A program made the position numbers and the translations under genes. Source: Deltaproteobacteria bacterium (GTDB lineage: Bacteria > Desulfobacterota > DSM-4660 > Desulfatiglandales > HGW-15). From it: a stretch of 64,000 bases of DNA. Within the stretch, counting starts at the first letter, position 1. The number at the start of each line of letters is the position of its first letter. Under the pieces are notes generated by a model, which saw only the letters and a list, made by a program, of their open reading frames with translations, did not search any database and was not told the origin of the DNA. The stretch spans positions 1 to 64,000 of the forward strand of contig JAFGDF010000355.1 of the NCBI GenBank assembly GCA_016932235.1, in the 5' to 3' direction. Positions 5,413 to 39,468 of the stretch are shown here, in pieces.

Positions 5413-5441
5413 AATATATCGAACGATCGATGCACTGTCAA
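5413..5441 (-). promoter_or_regulatory. Sigma-70 promoter with TetR-type operator, upstream of the first TRAP operon
   Basis: Read on the minus strand, TTGACA (5436-5441) and TATATT (5413-5418) are separated by exactly 17 bases. The spacer contains ATCGATCGTTCGAT, a near-palindrome also found at 19882-19913, 21228-21256 and 39435-39468. A repressor bound there would block RNA polymerase. The start codon of the binding-protein gene lies about 120 bases downstream. The promoter is read directly from sequence; the regulator is inferred. Confidence 0.75.
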
Positions 5442-5649
5442 CAAATTATTAAAATTATAGAAGGATTAAGCTGCCTATGTCAAATTAAATCTAATGTTTA
5501 TTATCATATATTGGTATTTGTACTTGAGATTGACCGCTACTCAAATTATCCTATCGTTGAAGCCCATGATTTAAACTTGGAGCTGTAGCTATTTTCTGCT
5601 TGTATCATTGCAAATGAAAAAAAAGGGTAGGGCGGTTAGAGTGCAATTA

Positions 5650-5865
5650 TTATGCACCTGAGAAAACCTCATCAATCAGGGGCATGGTTTTTTCAGTAAT
5701 GTCATATTGGGCTAAGAAGATTGGGGTTTTAATGAAAAGATCAACAGATGGTATCTGAAGGTTTCCCGGAGTGCCGTTATTAACTTCGGCGCTGATCTCC
5801 CTGCTTTTTGATTGAAGATGCCCGAAAGAAAAGATGCACGAACACCTGAGAAACCCTTTTAAGCG
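5650..5865 (-). pseudogene. Possible 3' remnant of an unidentified gene
   Basis: On the minus strand a frame of 71 codons is open between a TAG at 5866-5868 and a TAA at 5650-5652. Its last part (VNNGTPGNLQIPSVDLF, then FLAQYDITEKTMPLIDEVF) has plausible protein composition. The only Met lies near the C terminus and there is no ribosome-binding site, so an intact gene is not supported. It sits directly behind the acyl-CoA dehydrogenase gene in a 650-base gap and may be the tail of a deleted gene. I do not recognise the family. Confidence 0.25.
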
Positions 5866-5947
5866 CTATGTTTGATAAAAAGATAATCACTGATCTGGTG
5901 GAATCAATATGGAGTCCCATACTTCATCCATTTAATTATAAACTATC

Positions 5948-7075
5948 TCACTGCAAAATGGAAGCAGCCACAATGGATTTGTTTATTTCAAGGCTCACTG
6001 ATATTACACTGTTCCCGGTTTGTGCCCTGTACAACCTTTCTATCTTGAAATCTTTAGTATAACCATACCCGCCATGTAACCTGAGAGAGGTTTCGATGAC
6101 CTGAGACATTAAAGGCTGGACGATAATTTTGCACGCAGCGGCTTCTCTATACAGTTCAGGCGAATTTATTTCAATGAGCTGCGCTGTACAGTAAGTCATC
6201 CATCTGCAGGCGCGTATCTTCGCATACATATCAGCAAGTTCGAACCGGATTCCCTGCATTTCCGATATTGGACGCCCCCCTGCTTTTCTATTTTTCGTGT
6301 ATCTTATCGCCTCATCCAAGGCCGCCTGTGCTAAAGCCACTGCCACAATGCAGCCTTCTATTTTTTCTACGGATATCCAGTATAGAAGCACATCCAGACC
6401 TTTTCCTTTCTCGCCAAGAATCTGGCCGCTTCCGACCCGATAATTTTCATAGCACACATCCACCGCTTCAACTCCGCCACAACCCATAAGATCCCATATT
6501 TTAGAGGTAGAATATCCATCAGCCAGTTTTTCGACAATAAAACAGGTGCAATTTTCATTTTCATCTTTGGTCCAAACAATCGCAGGTCCGGGTCTGGCGC
6601 CAAAGGTGCTGAATCTCTTACTTCCTTTAATGATATAGCCATCGCCGTCCGGCACTGACCTCGTAAGCAGGGCTTTAGGGTCTGAGCCAGTATCGGGCTC
6701 GGTAAATTGGACGCTGAATAAGTTGGTTCCGTCCAGATACGATTTTACATATCTTTCTTGCTGCTCAGGGGTTCCAAACCTGGAGATTGTTTCAGGGATG
6801 CTGTTATTAAAAGCAACAGGCCACCATGCTGAGGTGCCGGAGTATGCCAATTTTTCAATAACAAGCAAGTGGGCAAAATTTCCAGCTCCAGTGCCGCCGT
6901 ATTTTTTAGGGACTGTCATGCCAAAAAATCCTACCTCTTTATACTTTTTCAAAACTTTATCAGGTATTTTACTTGTATGATCTATACTTTTTGCCAGAGG
7001 ATCTATCTCTTGACGGCAGAATTCTTCGGCAGTTTTTTGTATCATTTTTTGCTCATTCGTAAGACTTAAATCCAT
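5948..7075 (-). CDS. Acyl-CoA dehydrogenase, catalytic Glu at the LCAD/isovaleryl-type position
   Basis: Flavoprotein that oxidises an acyl-CoA to the 2,3-enoyl-CoA, passing electrons to ETF. Using the ATG at 7075, preceded by GGGAGGAAGG, gives 375 residues; the further upstream ATG has no such site. The FAD-binding QFTEPDTGSD (123-132) and the C-terminal LHGGYGYTKD (333-342) are conserved. The usual IYEGT catalytic Glu (MCAD Glu376) aligns with Ser359. Glu237, in ISVEK, sits where isovaleryl-CoA and long-chain dehydrogenases keep their base, so the enzyme should be active but of that subtype. It stands alone on its strand between the TRAP genes and an amidohydrolase. Branched or cyclic acyl-CoA substrates are possible. 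Confidence 0.9.
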   Translation of the reverse strand: MDLSLTNEQKMIQKTAEEFCRQEIDPLAKSIDHTSKIPDKVLKKYKEVGFFGMTVPKKYGGTGAGNFAHLLVIEKLAYSGTSAWWPVAFNNSIPETISRFGTPEQQERYVKSYLDGTNLFSVQFTEPDTGSDPKALLTRSVPDGDGYIIKGSKRFSTFGARPGPAIVWTKDENENCTCFIVEKLADGYSTSKIWDLMGCGGVEAVDVCYENYRVGSGQILGEKGKGLDVLLYWISVEKIEGCIVAVALAQAALDEAIRYTKNRKAGGRPISEMQGIRFELADMYAKIRACRWMTYCTAQLIEINSPELYREAAACKIIVQPLMSQVIETSLRLHGGYGYTKDFKIERLYRAQTGNSVISVSLEINKSIVAASILQ

Positions 7076-7217
7076 GAGCCTTCCTCCCTTTTTGTTTGAC
7101 ACATAAGCCAGTAGGACAACGGCTGACAGGCACCTTGCATTTCAGCAAATTAGCTTGATTTACATGTTGAACTATATATTAATATAAAAGGCAAATACTA
7201 AAAGCAATTCTATTATT

Positions 7218-8774
7218 ATGGTCGAACCTGAAAATAAAAATCTTATACTTATTGATGGGAATATCTTTACCATGGATACTGATCATCCCATGGCAAGATG
7301 GGTCATTATCCATGGTAACGGAATCTGTGCTTTTGGTGAAGGCAATGAATGGCGGAATTTCAGGAAAGCAAAGGATGAAATTATCGACTGCAAGGAAAAT
7401 ACAGTTCTACCCGGATTTATCGACGCCCATCTGCATCTTTACTCGTTCGCGGAGAATCTTGTAACGCCGGATCTGAGCAGGGATAACGGCATTCACTCGG
7501 TAGAAGATCTGCAAAATATCCTCCAGAGGTATTCAGAGTGTGTCCCAAGCGGTTTCTGGATCAGGGGAAAAGGCTATGATGAATTTTACCTGCGTGAAAG
7601 GCGCCATCCGGATCGACGGGATCTGGATAAGGCCGTTCCTGATAACCCTGTTAAGATAACGCACAGGTCAAGCCATGCGCATGTGCTGAACAGCATGGCC
7701 TTAAAGATGGTCGGCATATCAAGAGAAACCCCTGATCCACCTCGTGGAATTATCGATAGAGATCTCAGCACCGCGGAACCCACCGGGCTTTTATATGAGA
7801 TGGGGGATTTTTTATCCCATCATATTCCTCCTCTTTCACGGGAAGAATTAGAGAAAGGTGTTTTATTGGCAAATAAAAGGCTGATTTCCAAAGGGATAAC
7901 CTCCTTTCAGGACGCGTCGGCACACAATGATGTCAGGCAATGGGAGCTTTTTAAGGGCTGGAAGGGATCATCGATTCTCAAACCCAGAGTAGGTTTTATA
8001 ATAGGTACAGAAGCCTTTAGTCAACGCGGTACAGGTCCTTTTGACACAGAGTTGTCTGAAGACCAGTTGCGCGTTAACGGCGTAAAGATCATTCTGGATG
8101 AAACAACAGGATGTCTTTTGCCTTCCGATACCGAATTGGACAGGATAATATCCGATATTCATAATTCCGGCCTTCAGGCGATTATTCATGCAATTGAAGA
8201 AAACGCTGTTGAGGCTGCATGCGGAGCCATTGAACGTATCCTGAAAACCTTTCCAAGAAGAGACCACAGACACCGTATAGAACATTGCTCGGTTTGCCCG
8301 CCGAATCTCGCAAGGCGACTTTCCCTGAATAATATAATGGTCACCACTCATCCTGAATTTATTTTTCACAGCGGGGACCGCTATCTTAAGACGGTGCCGG
8401 GAAAAAATCTAAAATATCTTTACGCATTAAATACTCTGATAAATAATGGAGTTACTGTTGCCGCAGGTTCCGACTGCCCTGTTGTTCACCCTGATCCTGT
8501 CATTGGAAATTATTGCGCGATATCAAGAATGTCAAAAAATGGTAATGTGGTTAATTTAGATGAAAGCATATCTTTGCATGAGGCGTTAAAACTTTACACG
8601 GTTAACGCAGCGAAGAGCTCTTTTGAAGAGAATATTAAAGGATCACTCATACCCGGCAAGCTCGCGGATCTTATAATCCTGAATGGGGATATTTCAAGAA
8701 TGCGGACCGATGAATTGAAATTTGTTGAAGTCGATAAGACAATAATCAATGGTGAACTTGTGTGGAGCCGATAG
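7218..8774 (+). CDS. Metal-dependent amidohydrolase, YtcJ-like (amidohydrolase 3 family)
   Basis: A 518-residue cytoplasmic hydrolase of the amidohydrolase superfamily. The N-terminal beta-sandwich (LIDGNIFTMD) is followed by the metal motif DAHLHLY (His71 and His73) and later metal ligands in RSSHAHVLNS, IHAIEENA, HRIEHCS and AAGSDCPV. The C terminus returns to the sandwich with GKLADLIILNGDI. Family members hydrolyse N-substituted formamides, exo-amides and other C-N or C-O bonds, so the reaction cannot be fixed from sequence. The gene is transcribed alone, divergent from the acyl-CoA dehydrogenase and convergent with the histidine kinase. No convincing Shine-Dalgarno sequence precedes the ATG. 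Confidence 0.85.
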   Translation: MVEPENKNLILIDGNIFTMDTDHPMARWVIIHGNGICAFGEGNEWRNFRKAKDEIIDCKENTVLPGFIDAHLHLYSFAENLVTPDLSRDNGIHSVEDLQNILQRYSECVPSGFWIRGKGYDEFYLRERRHPDRRDLDKAVPDNPVKITHRSSHAHVLNSMALKMVGISRETPDPPRGIIDRDLSTAEPTGLLYEMGDFLSHHIPPLSREELEKGVLLANKRLISKGITSFQDASAHNDVRQWELFKGWKGSSILKPRVGFIIGTEAFSQRGTGPFDTELSEDQLRVNGVKIILDETTGCLLPSDTELDRIISDIHNSGLQAIIHAIEENAVEAACGAIERILKTFPRRDHRHRIEHCSVCPPNLARRLSLNNIMVTTHPEFIFHSGDRYLKTVPGKNLKYLYALNTLINNGVTVAAGSDCPVVHPDPVIGNYCAISRMSKNGNVVNLDESISLHEALKLYTVNAAKSSFEENIKGSLIPGKLADLIILNGDISRMRTDELKFVEVDKTIINGELVWSR

Positions 8775-8874
8775 GTATGAGACATAAATGCCTCAGCTAT
8801 TCAAAACTGGCGACCGTTTCTGCCAATAAAGGATCTTGCATCAATTTCTTCGCGAATGAGCTGGCGTCTTATAG

Positions 8875-10911: not shown

Positions 10912-11044
10912 GGTGCGATTCCTTGCGGCTGCATTTCTTCGAGATGTTTGGTTGATTTGAGTGGGTAAGAATGCCTTTTTATGAACGGAGCATAGAGAAT
11001 TTATCGTTTTATGTCAATCTGAATTTGGTCGGAGGTGCATGGAT

Positions 11045-11079
11045 TTTCATGTATTATTGTGGCCCGTAGGGCCATGAAT
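11045..11079. repeat. Hairpin: TGGCCC-GTA-GGGCCA within TTCAT/ATGAA
   Basis: TGGCCC (11060-11065) and GGGCCA (11069-11074) pair around GTA, with flanking TTCAT and ATGAA adding an outer stem. A related but degenerate string (TTTTCATGCATTGTGG followed by GGGCCATGAGTATT) occurs near 43902-43945. It lies just beyond the stop codon of the CoA-transferase gene ending at 11082 and may act as a factor-independent end signal, although no clear U-run follows. Confidence 0.4.
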
Positions 11080-11081
11080 GT

Positions 11082-13753: not shown

Positions 13754-13894
13754 TTAATCCGATGAGGGGAGGGGTTTAGGCTCCTGCACCTTCATCTCCT
13801 TATCACAGCAGACCGGATTTCCTTCACCGGCCTTTGTGCAAAGGACTTCCGTTCCACATTCTTCACATTGGTATCTTTTGCCTAACTGGCTCAT
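13754..13894 (-). CDS. Desulforedoxin-like small Fe(Cys)4 protein, 46 aa
   Basis: GGAGAT stands seven bases before the ATG at 13894. The 46-residue product reads MSQLGKRYQCEECGTEV followed by a CC pair and KEM. This is the Cys-x2-Cys ... Cys-Cys pattern of desulforedoxin and of the N-terminal domain of desulfoferrodoxin, which bind one iron (or zinc) with four Cys. Desulforedoxin is a 36-residue electron-transfer protein, so the length fits, with a short Pro-rich tail added. A close paralogue lies 130 bases upstream. A role as electron carrier or as a small zinc ribbon is possible; sequence alone cannot separate them. Confidence 0.75.
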   Translation of the reverse strand: MSQLGKRYQCEECGTEVLCTKAGEGNPVCCDKEMKVQEPKPLPSSD

Positions 13895-14026
13895 TATTAT
13901 CTCCTAATCTTTGGGTTAACGAAATATAACAGCAATCTCATAGACTGCTTTCATTATGAGAATGCCTTCGACTCAGACTGTCTGTCCGGGCCTTCGGCTG
14001 TTTTTCTGTGAGGCGGTCTTTCCTGG

Positions 14027-14146
14027 TTATTTTTTTATCTCCATTAGCTGGCCGCAACACTTTAGATCTCCTTTTCCCCGACGTGTCACAATTACTTCTG
14101 TTCCACATTTTTTACAAACATATCTTTTTCCTATTTCACTTGGCAT
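14027..14146 (-). CDS. Desulforedoxin-like small Fe(Cys)4 protein, 39 aa
   Basis: AAAGGAGAAGG precedes the ATG at 14146 by a good distance. The 39-residue product begins MPSEIGKRYVCKKCGTEV and ends with a DLKCCGQLMEIKK tail, giving Cys-x2-Cys ... Cys-Cys as in desulforedoxin. About half the positions match the neighbour at 13754-13894, so the two arose by tandem duplication. It lies 67 bases downstream of the acyl-CoA ligase gene and could be cotranscribed with it. Its partner protein is not known. Confidence 0.78.
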   Translation of the reverse strand: MPSEIGKRYVCKKCGTEVIVTRRGKGDLKCCGQLMEIKK

Positions 14147-16485: not shown

Positions 16486-16496
16486 CGTCCTCCTTT

Positions 16497-19097: not shown

Positions 19098-19694
19098 TTA
19101 AAGGGTTGAGTTGCCGGTGATGCCGTTCAAGACGTAATCTGCTATCATGTCTATAATTTCATCGAGTGAAAATCTCCCCGTAGGTCGATACCATCGCAGG
19201 AACCAGATAATAGTCCCAAGACTAAATAATGCGAAAATGGTAGGATCCTTTTCTACTCCATCATGTTCTAACAGGCGTTTTATCTCCGAACGATAGATAT
19301 CCAAAGTTTCTTCCTGAAACTTTCTGGTTCGGGACGAGGTGTACTCCTCATTAAAAGAGAATATCAGGCTCTCTTTTCTATGCGCGTCCATGTAAGTTAG
19401 ATGAGCCTTTATCAATTTTTTAAGACGATCTTTTGCCGGCAGATCAAGTTGTGTTATCTGTTTCAATTCCTTGAGCAACGGGTCCAGGGTTTGACGTTCG
19501 ATAGCAGACAGAAGGCCATTTTTGGTGCCGAAATAATGATAGATATTGGAAGTCGTCATGTTCATTTCAGACGCAATATCACGTATAGATGTTCCCTTGA
19601 AACCTTTGCGGGAAAAAAGATCTATGGATACGTCAATAAGTTTTTTTGGGGTATCGCCTGTTTTTTCTCGGGGCTTCGTTAGGGTTTTAGCCAT
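19098..19694 (-). CDS. TetR/AcrR family transcriptional repressor
   Basis: A 198-residue one-component regulator. The N-terminal helix-turn-helix is clear: SIRDIASEMNMTTSNIYHYF at about 41-60, with FSRKGFKGTS before and GTKNGLLSAIE after. The C-terminal part is a helical ligand-binding domain of the usual TetR length. TetR proteins bind palindromes overlapping promoters and leave when a small molecule, often an acyl-CoA in catabolic clusters, binds. A palindrome of the right kind (ATCGAACGATCGAT) lies in the intergenic region between this gene and the MaoC-type gene, and three near-identical copies sit in other promoters. I infer that this protein controls all four. Autoregulation is likely, since a weaker minus-strand promoter overlaps the same site. 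Confidence 0.93.
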   Translation of the reverse strand: MAKTLTKPREKTGDTPKKLIDVSIDLFSRKGFKGTSIRDIASEMNMTTSNIYHYFGTKNGLLSAIERQTLDPLLKELKQITQLDLPAKDRLKKLIKAHLTYMDAHRKESLIFSFNEEYTSSRTRKFQEETLDIYRSEIKRLLEHDGVEKDPTIFALFSLGTIIWFLRWYRPTGRFSLDEIIDMIADYVLNGITGNSTL

Positions 19695-19881
19695 TTGTGA
19701 AGATATCCTCCGTTTGCTATAATTTATAAACGCAGGAATATACCAACCAATTGATAAGCAGTCAATATGTTTTTCAGATTGGTTTCTCGAGGCGTTTACC
19801 TGTTATTTTTTAACAATTTCAAGTGTAGAATATGCCAGGAACCTGTCTATCAATATCCGATTTAATGGCAGTAAATATCAG

Positions 19882-19913
19882 TTGACAGTATATCGAACGA
19901 TCGATATAGTCAA
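19882..19913 (+). promoter_or_regulatory. Promoter with TetR-type operator between tetR and the MaoC-type gene
   Basis: TTGACA (19882-19887) and TATAGT (19905-19910) are separated by 17 bases that include TATCGAACGATCGATA, a near-perfect palindrome. On the opposite strand TTGACT (908-913 in the same block) and TATACT (19887-19892) are 15 bases apart and could drive tetR. A regulator bound here would act on both directions. Motifs are seen directly; control by the adjacent TetR is inferred. Confidence 0.78.
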
Positions 19914-19998: not shown

Positions 19999-21210
19999 AT
20001 GGAAGATAAAAAAAAATTGGCCGATGCGAGCGACATGAGTGAGGAGGAGTGGAATAAGGCACTGGATGAATGGATCGAGGAGAGAAACAGAAAGAGGGGA
20101 GAGATATTCATACCACCTGTTGGCATTTATCCGCCGGAACTTAAGGCCGGTCTTGAAACCGGCGTAAATAATGAATGGGTGACAACCGATTTGATAAGAC
20201 ATTATGCTGATGCGCTTGGAGATAAAAATCCGCTATGGCGCGACGAACGATACGCTAAAAGAACCAGATGGGGTGGGATCATAGCGCCACCGACCTTTAT
20301 TGACTGTATTGCCCCAACATTTACACAGGATAAGACAAGCATGCCGCCAGGCGCACGTGCATTGCCTGCCGGAGCAAAGCGCCGATGGTTCCAGGTCATG
20401 CGTCCAGGAGACAGAATCCATGTTGTTGATCAGTTTATCGGTGTAGAAGAAAAAAAGCATAAAGAAAAGAAACCCTACCGCATGTTTTTTGACAACACTA
20501 GAAGAACCTATATAAATCAGAGGGATGAGGTTGTGGCTATTGCTGATTGTCCGTTAATAATGCCAGTATTCCATCGTTTTGAGGATCAGAAGAGCGCGCT
20601 TAATCAGAATGTGGTGAAACATAAGTATACGCAGGAAGAATTAGACGAAATTCACCGCAATTATGAAGAAGATAAACCGCGTGGCTCCGACACGCGGTTC
20701 TGGGAAGATGTTAGCGTCAGCGATGAGATGAAGCCATTTATTGCCGGACCATTAACTGGTGCGGACGGAGCTGCAATGGTCGCAGCCATTGGTTACCTGG
20801 GGGCGTTTGGAATTAACTGGGAACTTATCAAGGCCAATTTCGCATGGCATCACATTGATCCTGAAACCGGGGATTATAACAGAGGATCTGAAGTGCATTT
20901 CAATGATATCACGGGAAAAATAAGAGGCGGCACCCGTTCATTCACTTTCGGTGCCCATTCAGAAGGCTTGTTAAGTCGTCTGATAACAAATTGGATGGGT
21001 GATGACGGGTTTATGAAGAGGCTGGATGCCGAAACTAGGCGCCCCTGGTATTTTGGTGATGCAGTCTGGGTAAAAGGAAAGGTAACGAAGAAATATGTCG
21101 AGAATAATGAGCACCTGGTTGATCTGGAAGTCTTTTGTGAAAATCAAGTCGGCACAGTCAACGAAACCGGAACTGCCACGGTGAGGCTTATTTCAAGATC
21201 AGAATTTTAA
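19999..21210 (+). CDS. MaoC-like double-hotdog acyl dehydratase
   Basis: A 403-residue protein with two hotdog domains of the FAS1-like/MaoC dehydratase type. The first half has IRHYADALGDKNPLWRDERYA (about 63-83), with the Asp of the hydratase signature D-x-N-P; His of the R-hydratase motif is replaced by Trp, as is common in the FAS1-like N-terminal group. The second half carries a further hotdog, with FAWHHIDPETGDYN and a FGDAVWVKGKV strand near the end. Such enzymes hydrate or dehydrate 3-hydroxyacyl-CoA thioesters or cyclic analogues. AGGAGGGT precedes the ATG. The gene has its own operator-bearing promoter next to tetR, which suggests an early pathway step. Confidence 0.85.
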   Translation: MEDKKKLADASDMSEEEWNKALDEWIEERNRKRGEIFIPPVGIYPPELKAGLETGVNNEWVTTDLIRHYADALGDKNPLWRDERYAKRTRWGGIIAPPTFIDCIAPTFTQDKTSMPPGARALPAGAKRRWFQVMRPGDRIHVVDQFIGVEEKKHKEKKPYRMFFDNTRRTYINQRDEVVAIADCPLIMPVFHRFEDQKSALNQNVVKHKYTQEELDEIHRNYEEDKPRGSDTRFWEDVSVSDEMKPFIAGPLTGADGAAMVAAIGYLGAFGINWELIKANFAWHHIDPETGDYNRGSEVHFNDITGKIRGGTRSFTFGAHSEGLLSRLITNWMGDDGFMKRLDAETRRPWYFGDAVWVKGKVTKKYVENNEHLVDLEVFCENQVGTVNETGTATVRLISRSEF

Positions 21211-21227: not shown

Positions 21228-21256
21228 TTGACAATATATCGATCGATCGATTAAAT
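21228..21256 (+). promoter_or_regulatory. Promoter with TetR-type operator upstream of the SDR gene
   Basis: TTGACA (21228-21233) is followed after 17 bases by TTAAAT (21251-21256). The spacer holds ATCGATCGATCGAT, the most regular copy of the shared palindrome. The SDR start codon is about 160 bases downstream. This probably drives the SDR and the two crotonases after it. Confidence 0.72.
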
Positions 21257-21417: not shown

Positions 21418-22167
21418 ATGGATTTTAAAGGAAAAGTAGCAATTGTAACAGGTGGTGGTCAGGGTATAGGTGAGGGCATTTGTTTGAATTTTGCAAAATT
21501 TGGTGCCGATGTCGCAATATTCGATACTAATCTCGAAACCTCTGAGGCTGTAGCCAAAAAACTAAAGGATATGGGCGTAAAATCCTTTGCTATCAAAACC
21601 GATGTAACAAATCAGGATAATGTAAATCAGTCTGTTCAGTCTGTTATCAAAGAATTCGGCACCGTTGACATACTGGTAAATAACGCCGGTTATGTGATGC
21701 CGGCACAGTCATGGTTTAAAGATGAAAAAGCCGACTACTGGGACAAGGTTATTGATGTCTGCTATAAAGGCACGATCTATTGCAGTAAAGCTGTTCTTGA
21801 TACAATGATGGAAAAAAAATACGGCAAGATTTGTAGTATCGCGTCAGACGCCGCCAGAGTTGGCCAAAGAGGCCAGGCTGTCTATTCCGGTGCCAAAGGC
21901 GCGGTGATCGCCTTTTCCAAAGCTCTCGCCCAGGAAGTCGCTTATTATAAAATCAACGTTAACTGTGTTTGTCCGGGCGCTACCAGAACCCCTGGAATGG
22001 ACACCATGCCAAAAGAAATGCAGGAAAAAATCGCTAAGTCCTATCTGTTTAAACGTGTCGCCGAACCACTTGATATCGCGAACGCTGTTTGTTTCCTGTG
22101 TTCGGAGTATTCCGTGTACATGACCGGTCAAACGCTCAGCGTGAGCAGCGGATACACGATGATCTAG
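21418..22167 (+). CDS. Short-chain dehydrogenase/reductase (SDR)
   Basis: A 249-residue classical SDR. The cofactor motif TGGGQGIG (11-18), NNAG (88-91), and the catalytic Ser143, Tyr156 and Lys160 (YSGAK) are intact. Asp36 at the end of beta-strand 2 (DTN) favours NAD(H). It should interconvert a hydroxyl and a keto group, for example a 3-hydroxyacyl-CoA or a ring alcohol. AAAGGAGATG precedes the start. It follows the operator promoter at 21228-21256 and is followed by two crotonase genes on the same strand. A phloroglucinol-reductase-like role was considered because of the transhydroxylase homologues in this window, but nothing in the sequence proves it. Confidence 0.9.
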   Translation: MDFKGKVAIVTGGGQGIGEGICLNFAKFGADVAIFDTNLETSEAVAKKLKDMGVKSFAIKTDVTNQDNVNQSVQSVIKEFGTVDILVNNAGYVMPAQSWFKDEKADYWDKVIDVCYKGTIYCSKAVLDTMMEKKYGKICSIASDAARVGQRGQAVYSGAKGAVIAFSKALAQEVAYYKINVNCVCPGATRTPGMDTMPKEMQEKIAKSYLFKRVAEPLDIANAVCFLCSEYSVYMTGQTLSVSSGYTMI

Positions 22168-22208
22168 GATTACATGAACTGTTACTATAATAAATGCTGG
22201 TAAAAAAT

Positions 22209-22991
22209 ATGTCATTTACGGATATCATTGTTGAAAAAAAGAAAAAGATTGTCTGGATAACACTGAATAAGCCCAATGTCCGGAATGCCATGGGTAAACA
22301 GACGCTTATAGAGATAGCCACGGCTATTGAAGGGGCAGAAAAAGATCCTGACGCAATAGCCGTTGTTGTCCGCGGAGCAGGAAACACTTTTTGTTCGGGC
22401 ATGGACACAAGGGAAAATCCACAACCGGATGGGCAAAATGTATCTGAATTCACGGTGCTTGCGGACAGGATGTTCCTAAGCATTGCCAAAATGAAAAAGG
22501 TTTCCATCGCAGTTGTGGAAGGTTACTGCATGGCCGGCGGTTTTGAGCTTGCCCTGGTATGTGATCTTATCTTTGCTGATGAAAACTGTCGTATGGGTGA
22601 TGGCCATATAAATCTTCCGGGCTTTGTCCCGAACGGCGGATCCTCAATCAGGCTCCCGCGGCTGATCGGAAAAAGAAAGGCAAAGGAGATTCTCTTCACA
22701 GGGGAGTTGATCAGCGGAAAAGAAGCTGAACGAATCGGTCTTGTTAATCGGGCTTTTCCGTCTGAAGATCTTCAAAAATCAGTAGAGGGTTTTGTTTCCA
22801 GGCTCGCGGACAAATCTCCGATTGGACTCGAATACATGAAGAAACTCATAGACAGGAGCACGGAATGCACACTGGAGGCAGGGCTGATAATGGAACGTAT
22901 GGCAGTGAATTATCTTGGGGGCACTGAAGACCGAAAAGAGGCAATGGCAGCCTTTAAAGAAAAGAGGGCCCCGGTTTATAAAGGTCGGTGA
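22209..22991 (+). CDS. Crotonase-fold protein, His in place of the second catalytic Glu
   Basis: A 260-residue enoyl-CoA hydratase/isomerase family member when the Met at 22209 is used; the upstream Met at 22194 is also possible and neither has a strong ribosome-binding site. The oxyanion-hole segment NTFCSGMDTRE (59-69) is present. Glu113 in AGGFELAL matches crotonase Glu144, but the second acid position is His133 in GDGHINLPG. The active-site floor NGGSSIRLPRLIG is intact. The same Glu to His change occurs in the crotonases at 18083-18853 and 29544-30374. It lies 41 bases after the SDR gene and probably acts on its product or substrate. Confidence 0.88.
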   Translation: MSFTDIIVEKKKKIVWITLNKPNVRNAMGKQTLIEIATAIEGAEKDPDAIAVVVRGAGNTFCSGMDTRENPQPDGQNVSEFTVLADRMFLSIAKMKKVSIAVVEGYCMAGGFELALVCDLIFADENCRMGDGHINLPGFVPNGGSSIRLPRLIGKRKAKEILFTGELISGKEAERIGLVNRAFPSEDLQKSVEGFVSRLADKSPIGLEYMKKLIDRSTECTLEAGLIMERMAVNYLGGTEDRKEAMAAFKEKRAPVYKGR

Positions 22992-23118
22992 TTTTTTTTC
23001 AATAATGCATAAGCAGAGTTTCCCTAATAAAATAAACAGAAAAAACCGTTAATAATTCAGCTATTACTATTAAATATCGTTCCTGATGGGGAACAGGTTT
23101 AAATGAAAGGAGATTTTT

Positions 23119-23979
23119 ATGGCTTGGGAGAATGAATGGACGAAAGTAGAAGGATTTTGCACGGATCAGACCATCTATGAAAAGAAATATTATCAGATGG
23201 GCGGAGTATCCAGAATCACTATGGCAAACACCAAGAAGGGGCTGAACTTCATCAGCCCTCGAGGTATGAACGAATTATGTGCGTGTCTAAGGGACGCACG
23301 TAAGGATGAGAGCATTGGAGTGATTGTTTTGACAGGAGCTGGGGACAAGTGCTTCTGCGCCGGTGGAGATCTGGGACAGGAAAGTGAAGAGAAAAAACCC
23401 AACGACTTTTCTCAAATGACTGATGTTCACCGTGAACTCAGGGCCTGTCTGAAGCCGGTTATCGCTGCTGTAAAAGGATATGCTATTGGCGCCGGACACC
23501 ACTATGCTTACCATTGTGACTTGACCATTGCCGCCGATAATGCGATTTTTGGGCAGGTGGGACCCAGAGTCGGCAGCCCCGCCAGTGGTTTCGATGTTGC
23601 TTATCTGGCCAGAGTTATCGGACAAAAGCGCGCAAGGGAGATGTGGCTATGCTGCGAACGCTACCCTGCCGAGAAAGCCCTCGAATGGGGTTTGTGTAAT
23701 GCAGTGGTTCCGCTTGATAAATTTGATGAAGAAGTAGAGAAATGGTGCCTGAAGATTCTGGATAAAGTACCTACCTGCATCCAGGTTGTCAAGGCCAGTT
23801 TCGATAATGAGGCTGAATTAATGCCTTACCATTCGATCGAATATTGGCCAAACTTGATTAATCCGGAATACTTTGGCGGCCCGGAAATGCGCGAGTCAAT
23901 GCAGGCCTTCCTGGAAAAGAGAACCCCTGATTGGGGTAAGGTCAGAGGCAGGCCGGATGATTTCAAATCAGACAAATAA
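23119..23979 (+). CDS. MenB/BadI-like crotonase (ring-forming or ring-cleaving type)
   Basis: A 286-residue crotonase most similar in pattern to dihydroxynaphthoyl-CoA synthase (MenB) and to 2-ketocyclohexanecarboxyl-CoA hydrolase (BadI), which make or break a carbocyclic C-C bond. Shared features are FCAGGD (74-79), KGYAIGAGHHYAYHCDLTIA, AIFGQVGP and ARVIGQKRAREMW. MenB and BadI have an Asp in VGSxD; here the segment is VGSPAS (151-156), with Ala155 at the Asp position, so the mechanism may differ. AAAGGAG precedes the ATG. It is the last gene of the group under the SDR promoter. A retro-Claisen ring opening in anaerobic ring degradation is a reasonable but unproved role. Confidence 0.85.
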   Translation: MAWENEWTKVEGFCTDQTIYEKKYYQMGGVSRITMANTKKGLNFISPRGMNELCACLRDARKDESIGVIVLTGAGDKCFCAGGDLGQESEEKKPNDFSQMTDVHRELRACLKPVIAAVKGYAIGAGHHYAYHCDLTIAADNAIFGQVGPRVGSPASGFDVAYLARVIGQKRAREMWLCCERYPAEKALEWGLCNAVVPLDKFDEEVEKWCLKILDKVPTCIQVVKASFDNEAELMPYHSIEYWPNLINPEYFGGPEMRESMQAFLEKRTPDWGKVRGRPDDFKSDK

Positions 23980-31625: not shown

Positions 31626-31740
31626 GTTTTAAACCATGGCTATTATTGAAACAAGGCGCATAATTAACGTTGTTTAGACTGATGCAGCACCACTGACTTG
31701 ACGCATTAAACATATTAACCTTTAACATGGGAGGTATGCT

Positions 31741-32760
31741 ATGAAAAGATCTACGCTTATAGTTTTAGTTATTTGTTCGGTTTTTCTGTTTTCCTCTCTT
31801 CTTTTAACTCCGGTTTTTGCCGCTGATACATATAATTGGAAGATGACGTCATTTGATAATGCCGGAGGATTCATTAATACTCTTCCCAAGAAATTCATAG
31901 AGGTATTGAATGAACGCACCAATGGCGCTGTTAAAATAACACTGTTTGAAAATACGCTCGGTAAGCCCCAGGACCACTGGGAGATGCTGGAAAAAGGGGC
32001 AACTCATCTGGCGTATCTGTCGGAAGGTCATAATCTCGGTCGCGTTCCCGTAGGAACCCTGCTCAATCTCCCATTTGAGATTTCGGAGATGAGCCTTATC
32101 TATGATCTTTGCAGTGAATGGCTGGAGGCCGGTTGCTTCAGGGAATTGACCGATTATTTCCAGGTATTGTTCATAAGACCCACAAATCCGATACACCTCT
32201 TCCTGCGTGATAAGAAGGTCACGAAGATAGATGACTTTAAGGGAATGAAAATAAGGGCCCTGGGGGGCATGATGGGAAAGACCTTGAACGCCTTGGGTGC
32301 CGCCTCGGTGAGCATGCACGGCTCTGAAATATACATGGGCCTGTCCACAGGTGTCATTGATGGTTTTCTTACCGGGCCTGATTTCGTTTATAACTTTAAG
32401 ATCCATGAGGTCGCGAAATACGGGCTTAAATTGTCGTTCAACGTAGGGTTCTGGGGCGCCTTTATGAACAAGAAGGTATGGGAAAGCCTTCCAAAAGATC
32501 TGCAGGACACCATCAAGGCGGTAAGCCATGATGTATGGAAGGAAGACAGGGAAAAAACGGAATCGATTATAAAGGAGTCATGGGAGAACCTTGCGAAAAC
32601 CAAGATGGAAGTATACACTCTTCCCCCGGAGGAACGGGAGCGCTGGAAGAAAGCGACCTCCGGTATTTCTAACGAATATCTGGATGAGTGGGCCGCGAAG
32701 GGTTACCCTGTCAAAGAGGCCTACAAGATGATGCAGGAGAAGGCGAAACTGGAGAAGTAG
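31741..32760 (+). CDS. TRAP transporter substrate-binding protein (DctP family)
   Basis: A 339-residue periplasmic binding protein with a Sec signal (MKRS, hydrophobic stretch, VFA/A cleavage near residue 29). DctP features include FEVLNERTNGAVKITLFENTL-like start, DFKGMKIRALGGMMGKTL (with the ligand-binding Arg) and the GVIDGFLTGPD segment. It differs clearly from the DctP of the first TRAP system, so the two bind different ligands. GGGAGG stands before the ATG. It is followed by separate DctQ and DctM genes. A carboxylate related to the flanking CoA pathway is the likely cargo. Confidence 0.93.
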   Translation: MKRSTLIVLVICSVFLFSSLLLTPVFAADTYNWKMTSFDNAGGFINTLPKKFIEVLNERTNGAVKITLFENTLGKPQDHWEMLEKGATHLAYLSEGHNLGRVPVGTLLNLPFEISEMSLIYDLCSEWLEAGCFRELTDYFQVLFIRPTNPIHLFLRDKKVTKIDDFKGMKIRALGGMMGKTLNALGAASVSMHGSEIYMGLSTGVIDGFLTGPDFVYNFKIHEVAKYGLKLSFNVGFWGAFMNKKVWESLPKDLQDTIKAVSHDVWKEDREKTESIIKESWENLAKTKMEVYTLPPEERERWKKATSGISNEYLDEWAAKGYPVKEAYKMMQEKAKLEK

Positions 32761-32782
32761 TTATTAAGGGAGGTATCCGGCA

Positions 32783-33295
32783 GTGAACCCCAAATCAATG
32801 GCCATGACCGCGGAAAAGCTGATAAACAAGGCAAGCCATATGTTTTGCTGGGTGAGTGTTATAGTCCTTATATTTATGACGCTGTTTATCACTGTAGACA
32901 TAATCGGGCGCTACGTGTTTTCAAGGCCGATTACCGGATCCATAGATTTTGTCGTGCTTATGATGGTTATTATCGTATTTCCTTGTCTCGCGCACGTTAC
33001 CACACTGAACCGTCATGTCCGGACCGACATAATATTTAACGATCTTTCTAAAAGAGGAAAAGGGGCGATTGATATCATAAATTCAGGTTGCAGCGTATTC
33101 ATCATCGGGATCATTACATGGCAGCTGGGCGCCCGGGTTGTCTATATTATTCAAAATCCCCCGGGTGTGACAACGGAATATTTTCAGATACCTCATTACC
33201 CTTTTATTGCCATCGCGGCAGTGGGATGCGGGCTGATGACCCTTGAGCTTATAATCTGGTTTATTCGTTCGATTCGACAGACTCTTAATGGTTAA
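32783..33295 (+). CDS. TRAP transporter small permease subunit (DctQ family)
   Basis: A 170-residue protein with four hydrophobic helices. The DctQ pattern FITVDIIGRYVFSRPITGSID is seen at about 35-55, and a HVTTLNRHVRTDII loop follows the second helix. The start is a GTG at 32783, nine bases after GGGAGG. It lies 22 bases after the binding-protein gene and 63 bases before DctM. It should pair with that permease in the cytoplasmic membrane. Confidence 0.92.
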   Translation: MNPKSMAMTAEKLINKASHMFCWVSVIVLIFMTLFITVDIIGRYVFSRPITGSIDFVVLMMVIIVFPCLAHVTTLNRHVRTDIIFNDLSKRGKGAIDIINSGCSVFIIGIITWQLGARVVYIIQNPPGVTTEYFQIPHYPFIAIAAVGCGLMTLELIIWFIRSIRQTLNG

Positions 33296-33358
33296 AATGA
33301 TAATGCTGTTTTATAAGCATGATGGTTTTAGGCGCCTTGGAATAGGGAGAAGATAATA

Positions 33359-34663
33359 ATGAGTCCGGAATCGATAGGGCTGATAGGCTTTGTAATAATG
33401 TTTGTATTTCTGTTCATGGGAATGCCTATCGGATTCTGTATGGCGTTTATAGGTTTCATGGGTGAAATATTTCTCTTCGGTTTTCATGGCGCGGTGATCC
33501 AGTTGGGAATGGTCCCATACGCTACGGTTGCTTCATTTGTATTATGCGTCCTGCCGCTCTTCATGCTTATGGGAGATCTGACATGGGCCTCCGGATTAAC
33601 AACAGGGTTGTATAATTTTGTTTACAAAGTCCTGGGCAGGCTGCCGGGCGGACTGGCCATGAGCACCATCGGCGCCTGCGGTATATTTGCGGCTTGCACG
33701 GGCTCCAGCCTGGCCAGCGCCGCCACCATGACCAAGATCGCCCTTCCCGAGATGCGCAGATACAATTACGATCCAGCGCTTGCAACAGGTTCAATAGCCG
33801 CTGGAGGAACCCTTGGGATTCTCATACCACCCAGCAGTCCCATGATAGTGTATTCCGTACTCACTGGCGCCTCCATCGGCAAGCTTTTCATAGCAGGTAT
33901 AATACCAGGGATGCTCCTGGTCGGATTGTTCATGCTTACAATTTATATATTGACAAGGATCAAACCCTCCATAGGGCCTCCCGGAGAAAGATCAGGCTTT
34001 CACGAGATTATAACTGAAGGTAAGGGCCTCTGGCCCGCGCTGGTACTGATTGTGGTCGTATTTGCGGGTCTTTGGGGAGGGGTTTTTTCCGCGTCCGAGG
34101 CCGGGGCTGTCGGAGCTTTCATATCCATGCTGATCATGATCGGAAGGAAGGGCTTTCACATAAAGGAAATCGTTTTAGCCGTAAGGGAAACCGTCATTAA
34201 CACGGCCATGATTTTTATGATTATTATAGGCGCCCTGATTTTCGGGGATTACATGACCGCGAGCAACCTCCCGGCGCTCCTGATAAGGGTGATAAATGAC
34301 TTTTCCCTTTCTCCGATCATGGTCGTCTTTATCCTTATGGTGATATATGTCATCCTTGGCGCGCTTATGGACGAGCTTGCCATCATGCTCATAACCGTTC
34401 CGGTTATACTCCCGTCCCTTGTGAACCTGCATATCGATATGGTATGGTTCGGGATACTCTTTGTGATAAACCAGCAGATGGGCATGATTCTGCCCCCGGT
34501 CGGCATGATTGTATTCATACTTGCCGGAATGATCCCCGATATACCCATGTACACCATTTACAAAGGTATCCTACCATTTGCCATCGCCATGTTTATATGC
34601 ATTATTCTTATCATGATATTTCCTGAGATCGCCACTTTTCTTCCCAATTCAATGATTAATTGA
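33359..34663 (+). CDS. TRAP transporter large permease subunit (DctM family)
   Basis: A 434-residue permease with about twelve hydrophobic helices. Conserved DctM elements include FLFMGMPIGFCMAF near the start, the GSSLASAATMTKIALPEM and GTLGILIPPSSPMIVYSVLTG segments that form the ion and substrate site, and LPPVGMIVFILAG near the end. It completes the second TRAP system with the DctP and DctQ genes directly upstream. The downstream alcohol dehydrogenase gene follows after 36 bases and is probably in the same transcript. Confidence 0.94.
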   Translation: MSPESIGLIGFVIMFVFLFMGMPIGFCMAFIGFMGEIFLFGFHGAVIQLGMVPYATVASFVLCVLPLFMLMGDLTWASGLTTGLYNFVYKVLGRLPGGLAMSTIGACGIFAACTGSSLASAATMTKIALPEMRRYNYDPALATGSIAAGGTLGILIPPSSPMIVYSVLTGASIGKLFIAGIIPGMLLVGLFMLTIYILTRIKPSIGPPGERSGFHEIITEGKGLWPALVLIVVVFAGLWGGVFSASEAGAVGAFISMLIMIGRKGFHIKEIVLAVRETVINTAMIFMIIIGALIFGDYMTASNLPALLIRVINDFSLSPIMVVFILMVIYVILGALMDELAIMLITVPVILPSLVNLHIDMVWFGILFVINQQMGMILPPVGMIVFILAGMIPDIPMYTIYKGILPFAIAMFICIILIMIFPEIATFLPNSMIN

Positions 34664-34699
34664 TATCGTAAAAATACAAAAAGAAAGGAATTTTATAAA

Positions 34700-35812: not shown

Positions 35813-35948
35813 CAAATTTTAAATTTTCCTTCAGCAGGCTGCAGGGAATCAATCAAATGATAAGAAGTTTGCCTATTGTGATACGATCGCCAAACTCATT
35901 AATAATTACGGGGAAGGCGTTAGCTCTGCATTTTTAAACAGTAAAAAG

Positions 35949-37223
35949 ATGAAGAAGAAGATAAAAGAGGGAAATTTTATTCCATCACCGGAATATCTGG
36001 CACGTGAGAAACGCGTAAAGGATGCCTTTGATCTCAAAATACCGGACCGGATTCCAATTCTGATGTACCCGGGATATCTTATAGCTGAAATGGGTGGTGT
36101 TACTCGAAAGGAACTTTACGATAACCCGGATAAGTCCCAGGAGATTCTGGAAAAAATAGCACTTCAGTTTCAACCTGATATGATTACAGGCCTGTTTGAC
36201 AGTCCGGAACCCAGCAGATTGCTGGGTGATCAAATGACCAGGTGGCCGGGTTATGGGTTAGGCCCCGATGATTCGTTTCAGTTCCATGAGCAGGAATTCA
36301 TGAAGGATAGCGACTATGATTCCTTTTTATTGGACCCGTCTGATTATGCCATCAGGACCTATCTGCCCCGAGCCTTTAGTAAAATGAAGGGATTGTCTCA
36401 ACTTCCTCCCTTTGGTATGTCTTTATTCGGTTTTTATAATCTTCGAAGCCTCCTCGCCCTTACTGATCCTTCCGTTGTCGCCGCGTTGAACGCGCTTTCC
36501 GCAGCCACCCGGGAAATAGTAAAGAAACATGCGCGGAGCGCGCGTTCAATGCGACGCCTTGCGGAAATAGGGTTTCCGGGCCCATTTTTTCTGGCAGGTG
36601 CTTTGCTTGAGGCTCCATTTGATTTCATGGCTGACACACTTCGCGGGATGCGCGGGATATTCCTTGATATGATGCGAATCCCGGAAAAGTTGCTTTTAGC
36701 CGAAGAAAAAGTAAAAAATATCATGCTTGAGCATGCCATAAACATGGCCCGGACGACGGGTATTAACTATGCCTCCTTTCCTTTACACAGGGGATCGGAT
36801 GGATTCATGTCGTTGGAGCATTTTGAAAAATTTTACTGGCCCCAGCTAAGGGATATGATTTTACAACTGGTTGATGCCGGTCTTAATATTTGGGTGTTCT
36901 ATGAAGGCATATGGGACCAGCGTCTGGAATACCTGGCGGAATTGCCGAGGGGCAGGACTGCCGGATTATTCCAGGACAGCGATATATTCAGGGTCAAGGA
37001 TACCCTGGGTGATACGATGTGTATTATGGGAGGCATGCCAATACCTTTGTTAATGGGTGGAACTGTCCAGGAAGTGCGTGATCATACACAAAGACTTTGT
37101 GAGCACGTGGGCAAGGGCGGTGGTTATATCATGAGCACGAATATTGCTGAATTGGAGGGCTGCAAGCCGGAACTGATTCGAACCTGGATAGACGCAACAA
37201 AGGAGTTCGGCGTGTATATTTAG
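35949..37223 (+). CDS. Uroporphyrinogen decarboxylase-fold (UroD/MtaA-like) protein
   Basis: A 424-residue protein with the UroD TIM-barrel. The start region LKIPDRIPILMYPGYLIAEMGG and the C-terminal VREHTQRLCEHVGKGGGYIMS-type strand are typical (here VRDHTQRLCE). True UroD is a single-domain enzyme of about 350 residues; related proteins in anaerobes (MtaA, CmuA, MtbA) are cobamide methyltransferases with a zinc His-x-Cys motif. Here the corresponding strand appears to read FYEGIWDQRLEYL, with no such Cys, and no corrinoid protein is encoded nearby. The ring substrate may therefore be neither porphyrin nor corrinoid. It ends the long + strand cluster; a paralogue lies at 39496-40740. The function is unknown. 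Confidence 0.82.
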   Translation: MKKKIKEGNFIPSPEYLAREKRVKDAFDLKIPDRIPILMYPGYLIAEMGGVTRKELYDNPDKSQEILEKIALQFQPDMITGLFDSPEPSRLLGDQMTRWPGYGLGPDDSFQFHEQEFMKDSDYDSFLLDPSDYAIRTYLPRAFSKMKGLSQLPPFGMSLFGFYNLRSLLALTDPSVVAALNALSAATREIVKKHARSARSMRRLAEIGFPGPFFLAGALLEAPFDFMADTLRGMRGIFLDMMRIPEKLLLAEEKVKNIMLEHAINMARTTGINYASFPLHRGSDGFMSLEHFEKFYWPQLRDMILQLVDAGLNIWVFYEGIWDQRLEYLAELPRGRTAGLFQDSDIFRVKDTLGDTMCIMGGMPIPLLMGGTVQEVRDHTQRLCEHVGKGGGYIMSTNIAELEGCKPELIRTWIDATKEFGVYI

Positions 37224-37301
37224 GATGCGCAATAAACATTATCCTTCACTAATGTCCGGGTTCAACCTTCTCTGGTCCTGATAACTATTGGAATGACCAT
37301 C

Positions 37302-37379
37302 CGCCCGCATCGTAAGGCATCATGCGTCAACCTTGCCAGGAACGAGTTTGACCGGAAAAAGAGTTCCCCCTACCGTGAT
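37302..37379 (+). repeat. Solo copy of the repeat found at 43638-43715
   Basis: These 78 bases match the reverse complement of 43638-43715 at 66 of 78 positions by direct comparison, with no gaps. It lies in a 260-base gap after the UroD-like gene and before the end of the AOR gene. Both copies have an open frame encoding an ARNEFDRKK-SPYRD string, so a decayed coding fragment of a mobile element is possible. Confidence 0.65.
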
Positions 37380-37483
37380 CTTTATGCGATTTCCTGAACG
37401 GACATGAATAATAAACACTGAAAGTTATATAAAAACCCATAAGGATCGATAATATCTTTATGGGTTTTGTGGATTTTGACAAC

Positions 37484-39322
37484 TTAAAAAAGCTCTTCCA
37501 CCTTTTCCGGAAGAGGCACTCCGTTTTCATCCCAGCCCATTAAGGTGTAATAATATTTAACGGCTTTCTTATATGCCGAACGGTCAACTTTCAGGTTGGC
37601 GAGTGCCCCATCAGTGGTTGGTTGAAAAAAACGTTCGGGCATTTCATCATCCTTGACTGATAAGCCTTCACGAAGATTAAAGAGTCTCATAAGAGTCACA
37701 ATCCTTTCCGCCGTTCTAAGCAGTTCTGGTATCCCGGTATCCCATCCGGTTACCGCTTCAACCAGTTGAGCCATCTGTTTGAAAGTGATACCCGTAAAAT
37801 GGCAGGCGGCCAGGGAGTCATATAGAATATTTTGAAACTGCACCAATCTGAACAGGGCCACTTTTTTTGGACCAAGATCATTCGCCTTAAGAGGTGTCAG
37901 AAACCCGAGCGGTTCATATTGTTTGAAGAAAAAATCGCGCTCCAAAAGACCGTCCGGTTGAGCCGCACAGTGATCCGCTCCGGTCGGTGAAACAGTGAAG
38001 CCCAGGGCTAAGGCGGAACCTATCCTTGGCTCGTGCATCCCGGGTTCAAGACCTTTAACATGCAAGGCAAAATCCTGACAGGCTTTTCCAAATCTTTTAG
38101 ACATTCTGGCAGTTCCTTCGGCCAATATTTTGCCAAAGCCTTCTCTCCTGGCAATCAGCTCAATAGCCTTAAGCATTGCCTCGCTATTTCCCCATTTCAA
38201 TTCCAAACCACCCGTATCCTCTTTTGTTAACAACCCCTTCTCATAACACTCCATTGCGAATGCTATCGTGCTTCCGGTTGAAATCGTATCAATGGAATAG
38301 GCGTTACAGCGCTCATTCCCTTTGACAATGGCTTTAAGATCTTCAATACCGCAGTCAGATCCAAGGGCGGCAAGGGTTTCATATTCCGGTCCACCGTATT
38401 CCGGATCAACTCTATAGGGTTCATCGAATTTGACCACCTTTTTACATTTTACATGACAGGCAAAGCAGCCTTTCATGCCGACACGGATAGTATCTTTTAT
38501 TACGCCGGCGTGAATTTTGTTAACACCGGGGAAGGTCCCGTCCCTGAAATTTCTTATGGGCAGATCGCCTGTATTTTCCTGTGCGAGCATGGAGGGGCCT
38601 CCGGTACCATATTCCGACTGGGGGAATGGGTGGCTTAGCTGCTTGCGTATTTCCCTGAATTTTTCTTCATCGGCTATTGAAGGCAATGTATGGCCTCTGA
38701 CCGCAATGGCCTTGAGGTTTTTTGATCCCATAACAGCGCCCATTCCGCCCCTTCCTGCTGCATCATGACAGCCTTCCATAATACAGGCAAAGCGAACCAT
38801 GTTCTCACCTCCGGGACCGATCATGGCAACCTGTATTTTTTTGTCGCCGAGCTCGGTTCTGATGATGGTTTCGGTCTCAAGGGTTTCCTTGCCCCAGAGG
38901 TGACCCGCGTCCATAATTTCCGCGTTTCCATCATGCACCCAGAGAAAAACAGGCTTCTCAGATCTGCCTTCAACGATAATCGCGTCAAAGCCTGCTCGTT
39001 TCAGTTCCGCCATCCAGTGCCCTCCGACTTCAGACTTTGCTATGCCTTTACTCAACGGTGATTTTGTTCCTATACAGTTTCGCGACGCGCCGGGAATCTT
39101 GAACCCGCTGATTGGTCCAAGGGCGAAGATTATTTTATTTTCAGGGCTTAGCGCGTCTACTCCTTGCTTCAGTTCATTCCACAGATAGTATGCAATAAAT
39201 CCGGCTCCGCCGAGGTATTTCCGACATACTTCTTCACCGATCTTTTCGGGCTGAACCCTTTTGAGAGTCAGGTCGACTCTCAAGACTTGGCCGTTATAAC
39301 CGTTGGGGATGTCTTTTGTCAT
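37484..39322 (-). CDS. Aldehyde:ferredoxin oxidoreductase (AOR family, tungsten/molybdopterin)
   Basis: A 612-residue AOR-family enzyme that interconverts carboxylic acids and aldehydes with ferredoxin, or performs related low-potential redox chemistry. Domain 1 holds the pterin-binding region with GTKSPLSKGIAKSEVGGHWMAE-type residues near 85-105. The [4Fe-4S] ligands are Cys286, Cys289, Cys293 and Cys507, in the family spacing. FTVSPTGADHC precedes the last Cys. Benzoyl-CoA reductase BamB subunits share this fold and are about 650 residues; the short length and lack of partner bam genes favour a plain AOR. It is divergent from the second UroD gene and shares with it an operator-bearing bidirectional promoter. 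Confidence 0.92.
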   Translation of the reverse strand: MTKDIPNGYNGQVLRVDLTLKRVQPEKIGEEVCRKYLGGAGFIAYYLWNELKQGVDALSPENKIIFALGPISGFKIPGASRNCIGTKSPLSKGIAKSEVGGHWMAELKRAGFDAIIVEGRSEKPVFLWVHDGNAEIMDAGHLWGKETLETETIIRTELGDKKIQVAMIGPGGENMVRFACIMEGCHDAAGRGGMGAVMGSKNLKAIAVRGHTLPSIADEEKFREIRKQLSHPFPQSEYGTGGPSMLAQENTGDLPIRNFRDGTFPGVNKIHAGVIKDTIRVGMKGCFACHVKCKKVVKFDEPYRVDPEYGGPEYETLAALGSDCGIEDLKAIVKGNERCNAYSIDTISTGSTIAFAMECYEKGLLTKEDTGGLELKWGNSEAMLKAIELIARREGFGKILAEGTARMSKRFGKACQDFALHVKGLEPGMHEPRIGSALALGFTVSPTGADHCAAQPDGLLERDFFFKQYEPLGFLTPLKANDLGPKKVALFRLVQFQNILYDSLAACHFTGITFKQMAQLVEAVTGWDTGIPELLRTAERIVTLMRLFNLREGLSVKDDEMPERFFQPTTDGALANLKVDRSAYKKAVKYYYTLMGWDENGVPLPEKVEELF

Positions 39323-39434
39323 GCTTGTTATCCTCTCTTTCTTGATCGCAAAAAAATCATATTTTAGAAATATATAAACGATGCCCTATTCTCATCGTGA
39401 ATGATAAGAAGATTATGAACGAATTCCATTTTTC

Positions 39435-39468
39435 TTGACAACATATCAATCGATCGATATGGTGTCAA
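39435..39468. promoter_or_regulatory. Symmetric bidirectional promoter with TetR-type operator (AOR / UroD-CocE)
   Basis: On the + strand TTGACA (39435-39440) and TATGGT (39458-39463) have a 17-base spacer. On the minus strand TTGACA (39463-39468) and TATGTT (39440-39445) also have a 17-base spacer. Both spacers contain ATCAATCGATCGAT. One bound repressor would therefore silence AOR and the UroD-CocE pair together. The motifs are seen directly; the regulator is inferred. Confidence 0.78.

Follow-up and report, generated by a model that had tools for sequence, protein, structure and literature searches.

The regulators that govern the anaerobic breakdown of acids and rings are little mapped in uncultured Desulfobacterota. 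TetR repressors with operators in the promoters of coenzyme A (CoA) pathways are a well-known kind, and one such protein, KstR2 of Mycobacterium tuberculosis, controls CoA-thioester catabolism. MbdR of Azoarcus sp. CIB is described, in the passages available of PMC4424350, as a TetR repressor of an anaerobic pathway that is released by a CoA thioester, with operators that span the -10/-35 elements and start sites of several promoters, including its own. According to the available part of PMC6651687, TTHA0973 of Thermus thermophilus is a TetR regulator of phenylacetate genes with the selected consensus AACnAACGTTnGTT. Here, we analysed a 64,000-nucleotide stretch of DNA from a Deltaproteobacteria bacterium (contig JAFGDF010000355.1, positions 1 to 64,000; hereafter the window), in which a 14-bp motif, ATCGAWCGWTCGAT, occurs in four promoter regions, one of them adjoining a gene for a TetR-family protein at 19098-19694. 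Judged from sequence, ATCGAWCGWTCGAT is probably the operator of this TetR protein (rough probability 0.78), such that a CoA thioester would release the repressor and five groups of target genes would be induced together.

Four copies of ATCGAWCGWTCGAT were found in the window (three exact and one with one mismatch), starting at 5418, 19892, 21238 and 39445. They are listed here together with the promoter-like sequences that frame them; scores are from a matrix built on other genomes, which is described further on.

5418-5431, operator 1, ATCGAACGATCGAT, matrix score 26.1 bits
19892-19905, operator 2, ATCGAACGATCGAT, matrix score 30.2 bits
21238-21251, operator 3, ATCGATCGATCGAT, matrix score 25.1 bits
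39445-39458, operator 4, ATCAATCGATCGAT, matrix score 23.6 bits
5413-5441, minus strand, promoter-like TTGACA-N17-TATATT at operator 1, towards the DctP gene
19882-19910, plus strand, promoter-like TTGACA-N17-TATAGT at operator 2, towards the MaoC-type gene
21228-21256, plus strand, promoter-like TTGACA-N17-TTAAAT at operator 3, towards the short-chain dehydrogenase/reductase (SDR) and crotonase genes
39435-39463, plus strand, promoter-like TTGACA-N17-TATGGT at operator 4, towards the UroD and CocE genes
39440-39468, minus strand, promoter-like TTGACA-N17-TATGTT at operator 4, towards the aldehyde ferredoxin oxidoreductase (AOR) gene

At all four sites the core started 10 bp past the first base of TTGACA, and the spacer was 17 bp. 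An earlier note on this DNA had placed four such palindromes in non-coding gaps, each inside the spacer between TTGACA and a -10 box; the palindromes were present in these gaps in numbers above chance and the spacing held throughout, but the -10 hexamer begins on the final base of the 14-bp core, which is thus not entirely within the spacer. The same note's promoters on both strands of 39435-39468 were borne out, with TTGACA standing at an equal 10-bp distance from site 39445 on each strand. The -10 hexamers agreed with TATAAT at 5, 5, 4 and 4 of 6 positions at sites 1–4 and at 4 on the minus strand of 39445, and the minus-strand box at 19892 was weak (TTGACT at 8 bp, TACTGT with 3/6). A purine-rich, Shine-Dalgarno-like stretch preceded the start codon of each target gene and the leader lengths were plausible; the UroD start codon, for example, lies 33 bp beyond the end of its -10 hexamer. 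All four sites were intergenic, which has P ~2e-4 given that 12.3% of the window lies outside its 49 called genes. A mechanically called open reading frame (ORF) of 145 amino acids (39364-39801, minus strand), which overlaps site 4 antisense to the UroD gene, was treated as spurious.

The motif was far more frequent in the window than in sequences of comparable composition. ATCGATCGATCGAT gave 5 matches at ≤ 2 mismatches (the four sites, with two matches overlapping) vs a mean of 0.44 in shuffled sequences, none of 100 of which reached 5, and ATCGAWCGWTCGAT gave 4 matches at ≤ 1 mismatch, where 60 order-3 Markov sequences gave 0.05 on average and 1 at most. In the window's likely order, 85 genomes totalling 289.6 Mb contained the exact motif 10 times, and at this rate three exact copies in 64 kb have a Poisson P ~2e-9. 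A held-out test was performed with a symmetric 20-bp matrix. Of the 27 relatives chosen for it, 26 supplied its 45 sites; L004, L018, L020, L025, L027, L029 and L030 were left out of the choice. This relatives-only matrix ranked the window's four sites first, at the scores listed above, with the next place at 7.7 bits and a highest score of 17.1 bits in 40 Markov sequences. The matrix describes sites and not the frequency of sites in the family, because the loci lacking a site were among those omitted.

The adjacent TetR gene is the best candidate for the regulator of the four sites.

19098-19694, minus strand, TetR-family repressor of 198 amino acids, candidate regulator (Pfam TetR_N and TetR_C_24)
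19737-19765, minus strand, promoter-like TTGACT-N17-TATATT without an operator, before the TetR gene

The TetR gene adjoins operator 2, in agreement with the earlier note, and its product scored 51 bits for TetR_N (cut-off 24) and 61.1 bits for TetR_C_24 (cut-off 26.4). Among the NCBIfam TetR equivalogs, 20 families matched (RefZ, RutR, BetI, FadR, PsrA, KstR, AcuR and others), all far under the curated cut-off (e.g. RefZ 67 of 180 and KstR 19.7 of 280).

A protein search returned 258 TetR relatives at E ≤ 0.001, the best 120 of which came mostly from short contigs. We examined the first 30 of 80 loci fetched from genomes over a range of 400 bp upstream of the TetR match. The motif was found in this range at ≤ 1 mismatch in 20/30 loci and at ≤ 2 mismatches in 24/30. 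Across all 30 loci, 37 of 41 copies at ≤ 1 mismatch (overlaps counted) lay there, the remaining four being in L020 (two), L023 and L028 (one each). The 30 loci are not all independent: L026 nearly duplicates L027, and the members of the pairs L017/L018 and L011/L012 seem to be close relatives. L102, L103, L104 and L108 were also positive, as was L110 at 2 mismatches. Desulfobacterota showed the pairing, as did loci carrying Beta-, Gamma- and Alphaproteobacteria labels, and its occurrence in several classes argues for the link between motif and TetR regulator that had been proposed for the window. Among 395 genomes from the phylum to which strain NaphS2 belongs, which we take to be Desulfobacterota, the exact TTGAC-anchored motif occurred three times, always before a TetR relative; the TetR family itself was detected at E ≤ 1e-30 in 12 of these genomes, with one match each (up to 8 candidates per genome scored).

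Non-random use of the motif, which the earlier note had made a matter for the whole genome, was tested in relatives. The exact form was rare and stood before TetR genes at 6 of the 10 places where it occurred in the 85 order genomes, namely five at a TetR relative and one, L140, at another TetR_C_24 gene; two more were upstream of DctP genes. L140 carries the exact operator (1501) at the start of a gene (799-1533) whose product is 31% identical to the window TetR, and the operator class thus extends past the close TetR family. No TetR relative with > 45% identity to the window's was found among the 85 genomes of the order. None of the 29 stretches of viral contigs that matched the peptide pattern was a TetR relative, and the TetR was found in 0 of 10 genomes of the order of G270, which was chosen for a MaoC homologue of 44% identity. 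The likely order of the window was deduced from its MiaB (58389-59762), which had a best identity of 61% among 385 genomes and whose named database matches include Desulfatiglandales.

The position of the site within the promoter also recurred. Eighteen loci of relatives were scanned for sites (≤ 1 mismatch to ATCRAWCGWTYGAT) in the TetR promoter. In 13 of them a site started at a distance of 10 or 11 bp from the beginning of TTGAC, and in 11 of the 13 there was a second one at 31–44 bp. Sites in two genomes described below, G466 and G463, lay 29 or 31 bp after the TTGAC start, just downstream of the -10, and one of them also had TTGAC at 11 bp on the opposite strand. The two operator positions, in the spacer and past the -10, are approximately two helical turns apart, and both would suit a repressor.

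The genes under the four promoters were as follows.

2187-5292, minus strand, tripartite ATP-independent periplasmic (TRAP) uptake: DctP (4243-5292) and fused DctQM (2187-4091) (Pfam)
19999-21210, plus strand, MaoC/FAS1-dehydratase-type enzyme of 403 amino acids (Pfam)
21418-23979, plus strand, SDR and two crotonases
37484-39322, minus strand, AOR (Pfam)
39496-42510, plus strand, UroD-family protein (39496-40740) and CocE/NonD hydrolase (40774-42510)

The SDR was BadH-like and the second crotonase MenB/BadI-like, both under the family cut-off. Downstream of the crotonases, genes on the same plus strand continue to 37223, and the neighbourhood also holds family III and 3-oxoacid CoA transferases and an acyl-CoA ligase.

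Several of these targets recurred beside the operator in G466 and G463, both genomes of the window's likely order. Locus L197 of G466 holds, on one strand, a TetR gene (26% identity to the window's), MaoC (33%), the operator, an SDR (41%) and CaiB (30%). In the same genome, operators stand before DctP (25%, likeness at family level only) and before an iron-sulfur (FeS)-AOR operon (AOR 37%) in L146, and before a second AOR (30%) in L204; the operator in L202, which lacks the promoter offset, precedes a POR gamma-type subunit. In L196 the operator lies between a TetR gene (32%) and a 3-hydroxyacyl-CoA dehydrogenase/enoyl-CoA hydratase gene; it falls in a 120-amino-acid ORF between the two, which we took as spurious. 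G463 has an exact operator before DctP (39%) and DctQM (51% over the part present). Of the single joint response that had been proposed for the window, the TRAP receptor, AOR and the SDR (there with CaiB) have counterparts in G466 and the TRAP operon has one in G463, but UroD-CocE, a candidate member judging by its operator in the window, found no support outside it.

A number of observations weigh against this interpretation. In six of the 30 loci (L004, L020, L022, L025, L029 and L030) the 400 bp upstream lacked the motif even at ≤ 2 mismatches, L020 having an exact copy at -569, outside that range; L105, L111 and L136 were likewise without an upstream motif, and L141 and L142, among the 10 exact places in genomes of the order, were unexplained. 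The genes beside TetR were unlike those of the window in most of 28 relatives' loci, and because neighbour genes differ in this way we read the operator–regulator pair as conserved and its targets as variable. The TetR relatives in G466 are only 26–32% identical and its DctP 25%, and G463 has no TetR relative at E ≤ 1e-8, in an assembly that may be incomplete. Distant MaoC homologues (31–44% identity, in 15/395 genomes) had no operator. The promoter-like site of the window TetR gene is operator-free, unlike those of relatives; evidence for this promoter is weak (20 promoter-like sites vs 14.4 in shuffles), and the window TetR may, unlike its relatives, not be tightly autoregulated. Finally, the solved folds nearest to the window TetR also include AmtR, NicR2 and DarR, which bind no CoA thioesters.

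Three other explanations were weighed. A motif of no regulatory role, whether a chance occurrence, a simple ATCG repeat or a sequence of methylation type, would agree with ATCGATCGATCGAT being a tandem ATCG run and with the presence of the loose motif (one mismatch to ATCRAWCGWTYGAT) in 82 of 85 genomes. Against this reading stand window counts exceeding those of shuffles, Markov sequences and the 85 genomes, the identical TTGACA spacing and the restriction of the exact TTGAC-anchored form, across 395 genomes, to positions before TetR relatives; we regard it as the least probable explanation, its chance and ATCG-repeat versions having been rejected on counts and promoter-anchored distribution. 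Activation rather than repression by the TetR protein is barely more probable: some TetR-family proteins do activate, but a protein bound to a core between -35 and -10 (in the window and in the TetR promoters of relatives) or just past the -10 (in G466 and G463) would block polymerase.

The sites might, alternatively, serve this TetR class while the acting regulator is one or more paralogues elsewhere in the genome. Such paralogy is seen in G466, where two proteins belong to the family at E < 1e-36 and other TetR-type matches occur, and a 31%-identical TetR gene in G425 has the exact operator in front; the possible lack of autoregulation in the window points the same way. Considering the single family match in each of 12 genomes noted above, the position of the TetR gene beside operator 2, and the company that motif and TetR family keep in most relatives, we think this unlikely, although much less so than the preceding two.

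Repression by the TetR protein encoded at 19098-19694 is thus the reading that we prefer. DNA binding, repression, the CoA-thioester ligand, the choice of this TetR over a paralogue and the operon extents are predictions from the sequence. A TetR dimer on ATCGAWCGWTCGAT would lie over the spacer and reach into the -10 box, blocking RNA polymerase at four promoter regions, of which 39435-39468 would be a near-symmetrical face-to-face promoter pair under a single operator. A CoA thioester derived from the substrate would free the repressor from the operators, and TRAP uptake, the MaoC-type enzyme, the SDR/crotonase series, AOR and UroD-CocE would then be induced jointly. Because the four promoters share the putative TetR operator, uptake and breakdown genes for an acid are probably induced together.

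We would go further only tentatively, with the odds somewhat against us. The TetR-ATCGAWCGWTCGAT pair could be widespread in Desulfobacterota and Proteobacteria, using two promoter positions (10–11 bp and 29–31 bp), and could have spread from the regulator's own promoter to the regulon of an undescribed anaerobic pathway in the lineage of the window and in G466. In the window, a single operator within a nearly self-complementary pair of promoters would then serve AOR on one side and UroD-CocE on the other. The pathway would comprise TRAP uptake, MaoC, BadH/BadI-like enzymes, AOR and perhaps UroD-CocE. The operator defines a candidate gene set of transporter, CoA enzymes, AOR and UroD-CocE; its conserved 14–20 bp are a search string for such pathway genes in metagenomes, and the operator–repressor pair is a possible part for a CoA-thioester biosensor.

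Two wider proposals were rejected. Membership of the MaoC family does not in itself make a gene a target (0/20 loci with a copy at ≤ 1 mismatch and 1 with 2 mismatches). A genome-wide regulon in G466, based on 66 loose sites vs 4 for the reversed control, was discarded; loose matches of this kind occur in 82/85 genomes, which makes the reversed pattern a poor control, and the corresponding counts in three other genomes were 18:11, 11:23 and 22:6. The tighter matches also spoke against it: of 29 one-mismatch matches in G466, 19 were inside ORFs of ≥ 100 amino acids and 10 outside, and 5, including that in L196, had the promoter offset. The genome G462 had 37 loose operator matches, the most of the 85 order genomes, and no TetR relative at E ≤ 1e-30.

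Other features were observed in the window and in relatives' loci. A second complete TRAP system (31741-34663, plus strand) lies within the gene run after operator 3 and has no operator of its own. Two cysteine-rich ORFs of 46 and 39 amino acids (13754-13894 and 14027-14146, minus strand) with CxxC and CC motifs, between a CoA ligase and a CoA transferase, resemble desulforedoxin-type zinc ribbons by eye. Divergent molybdopterin oxidoreductases of 888 amino acids each (44201-46867, minus strand, and 47200-49866, plus strand) have a weak pyrogallol-transhydroxylase-like first domain and are followed by an FeS subunit. L001 and L026 hold HyuA, a UroD-like protein, HyuA and HyuB beside TetR, with an acyl-CoA ligase in L001, a set that resembles acetophenone carboxylase (compare the parts available of PMC5214803 and PMC4729919). 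The TetR-headed operon there (L001:8336-18538, L026:10001-18321) perhaps encodes a ketone carboxylase.

Compared with known regulators, the nearest solved folds to the window TetR (Foldseek) were TetR proteins, several of them acyl-CoA-bound or regulators of CoA pathways, including AibR with isovaleryl-CoA, KstR2, SaFadR with lauroyl-CoA and Bacillus subtilis FadR with stearoyl-CoA (the ligand classes of these acyl-CoA binders and of AmtR, NicR2 and DarR are partly our assumption). AibR (PDB 5k7f, 5k7h and 5k7z), solved with isovaleryl-CoA and operator DNA, has the same fold (profile E 7e-22; Foldseek ranks 5–6) at ~21–23% identity. KstR2 (PDB 4w97 and 4w1u) shares fold and TetR type (profile E 9e-18; Foldseek ranks 9–10) at ~20% identity, and serves steroid genes, not the gene set of the window. 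The inducer is likely, by analogy, an alicyclic or aromatic acid in the form of its CoA thioester, because fold kin bind acyl-CoA and BadH/BadI-like enzymes, CoA transferases and a ligase are encoded nearby.

The operator and regulon were not found in the literature searched, which comprised titles, abstract openings and some passages, with few subscription papers and no supplements. MbdR (PDB 4uds) matched the window TetR by profile at E 3e-13, and its operator as given in the available passages, ATAC-N10-GTAT (PMC4424350), was present in 0/4 window sites. The structure matches also include PDB 3vpr, which is PfmR, a TetR protein of Thermus thermophilus distinct from TTHA0973. The TTHA0973 operator, as far as the source was available, has outer arms unlike those here. 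Of its 12 specified bases, the consensus, the only form compared, shares 10 with the perfect site of the relatives, ATCGAACGTTCGAT, and 8 or 9 with the sites in the window.

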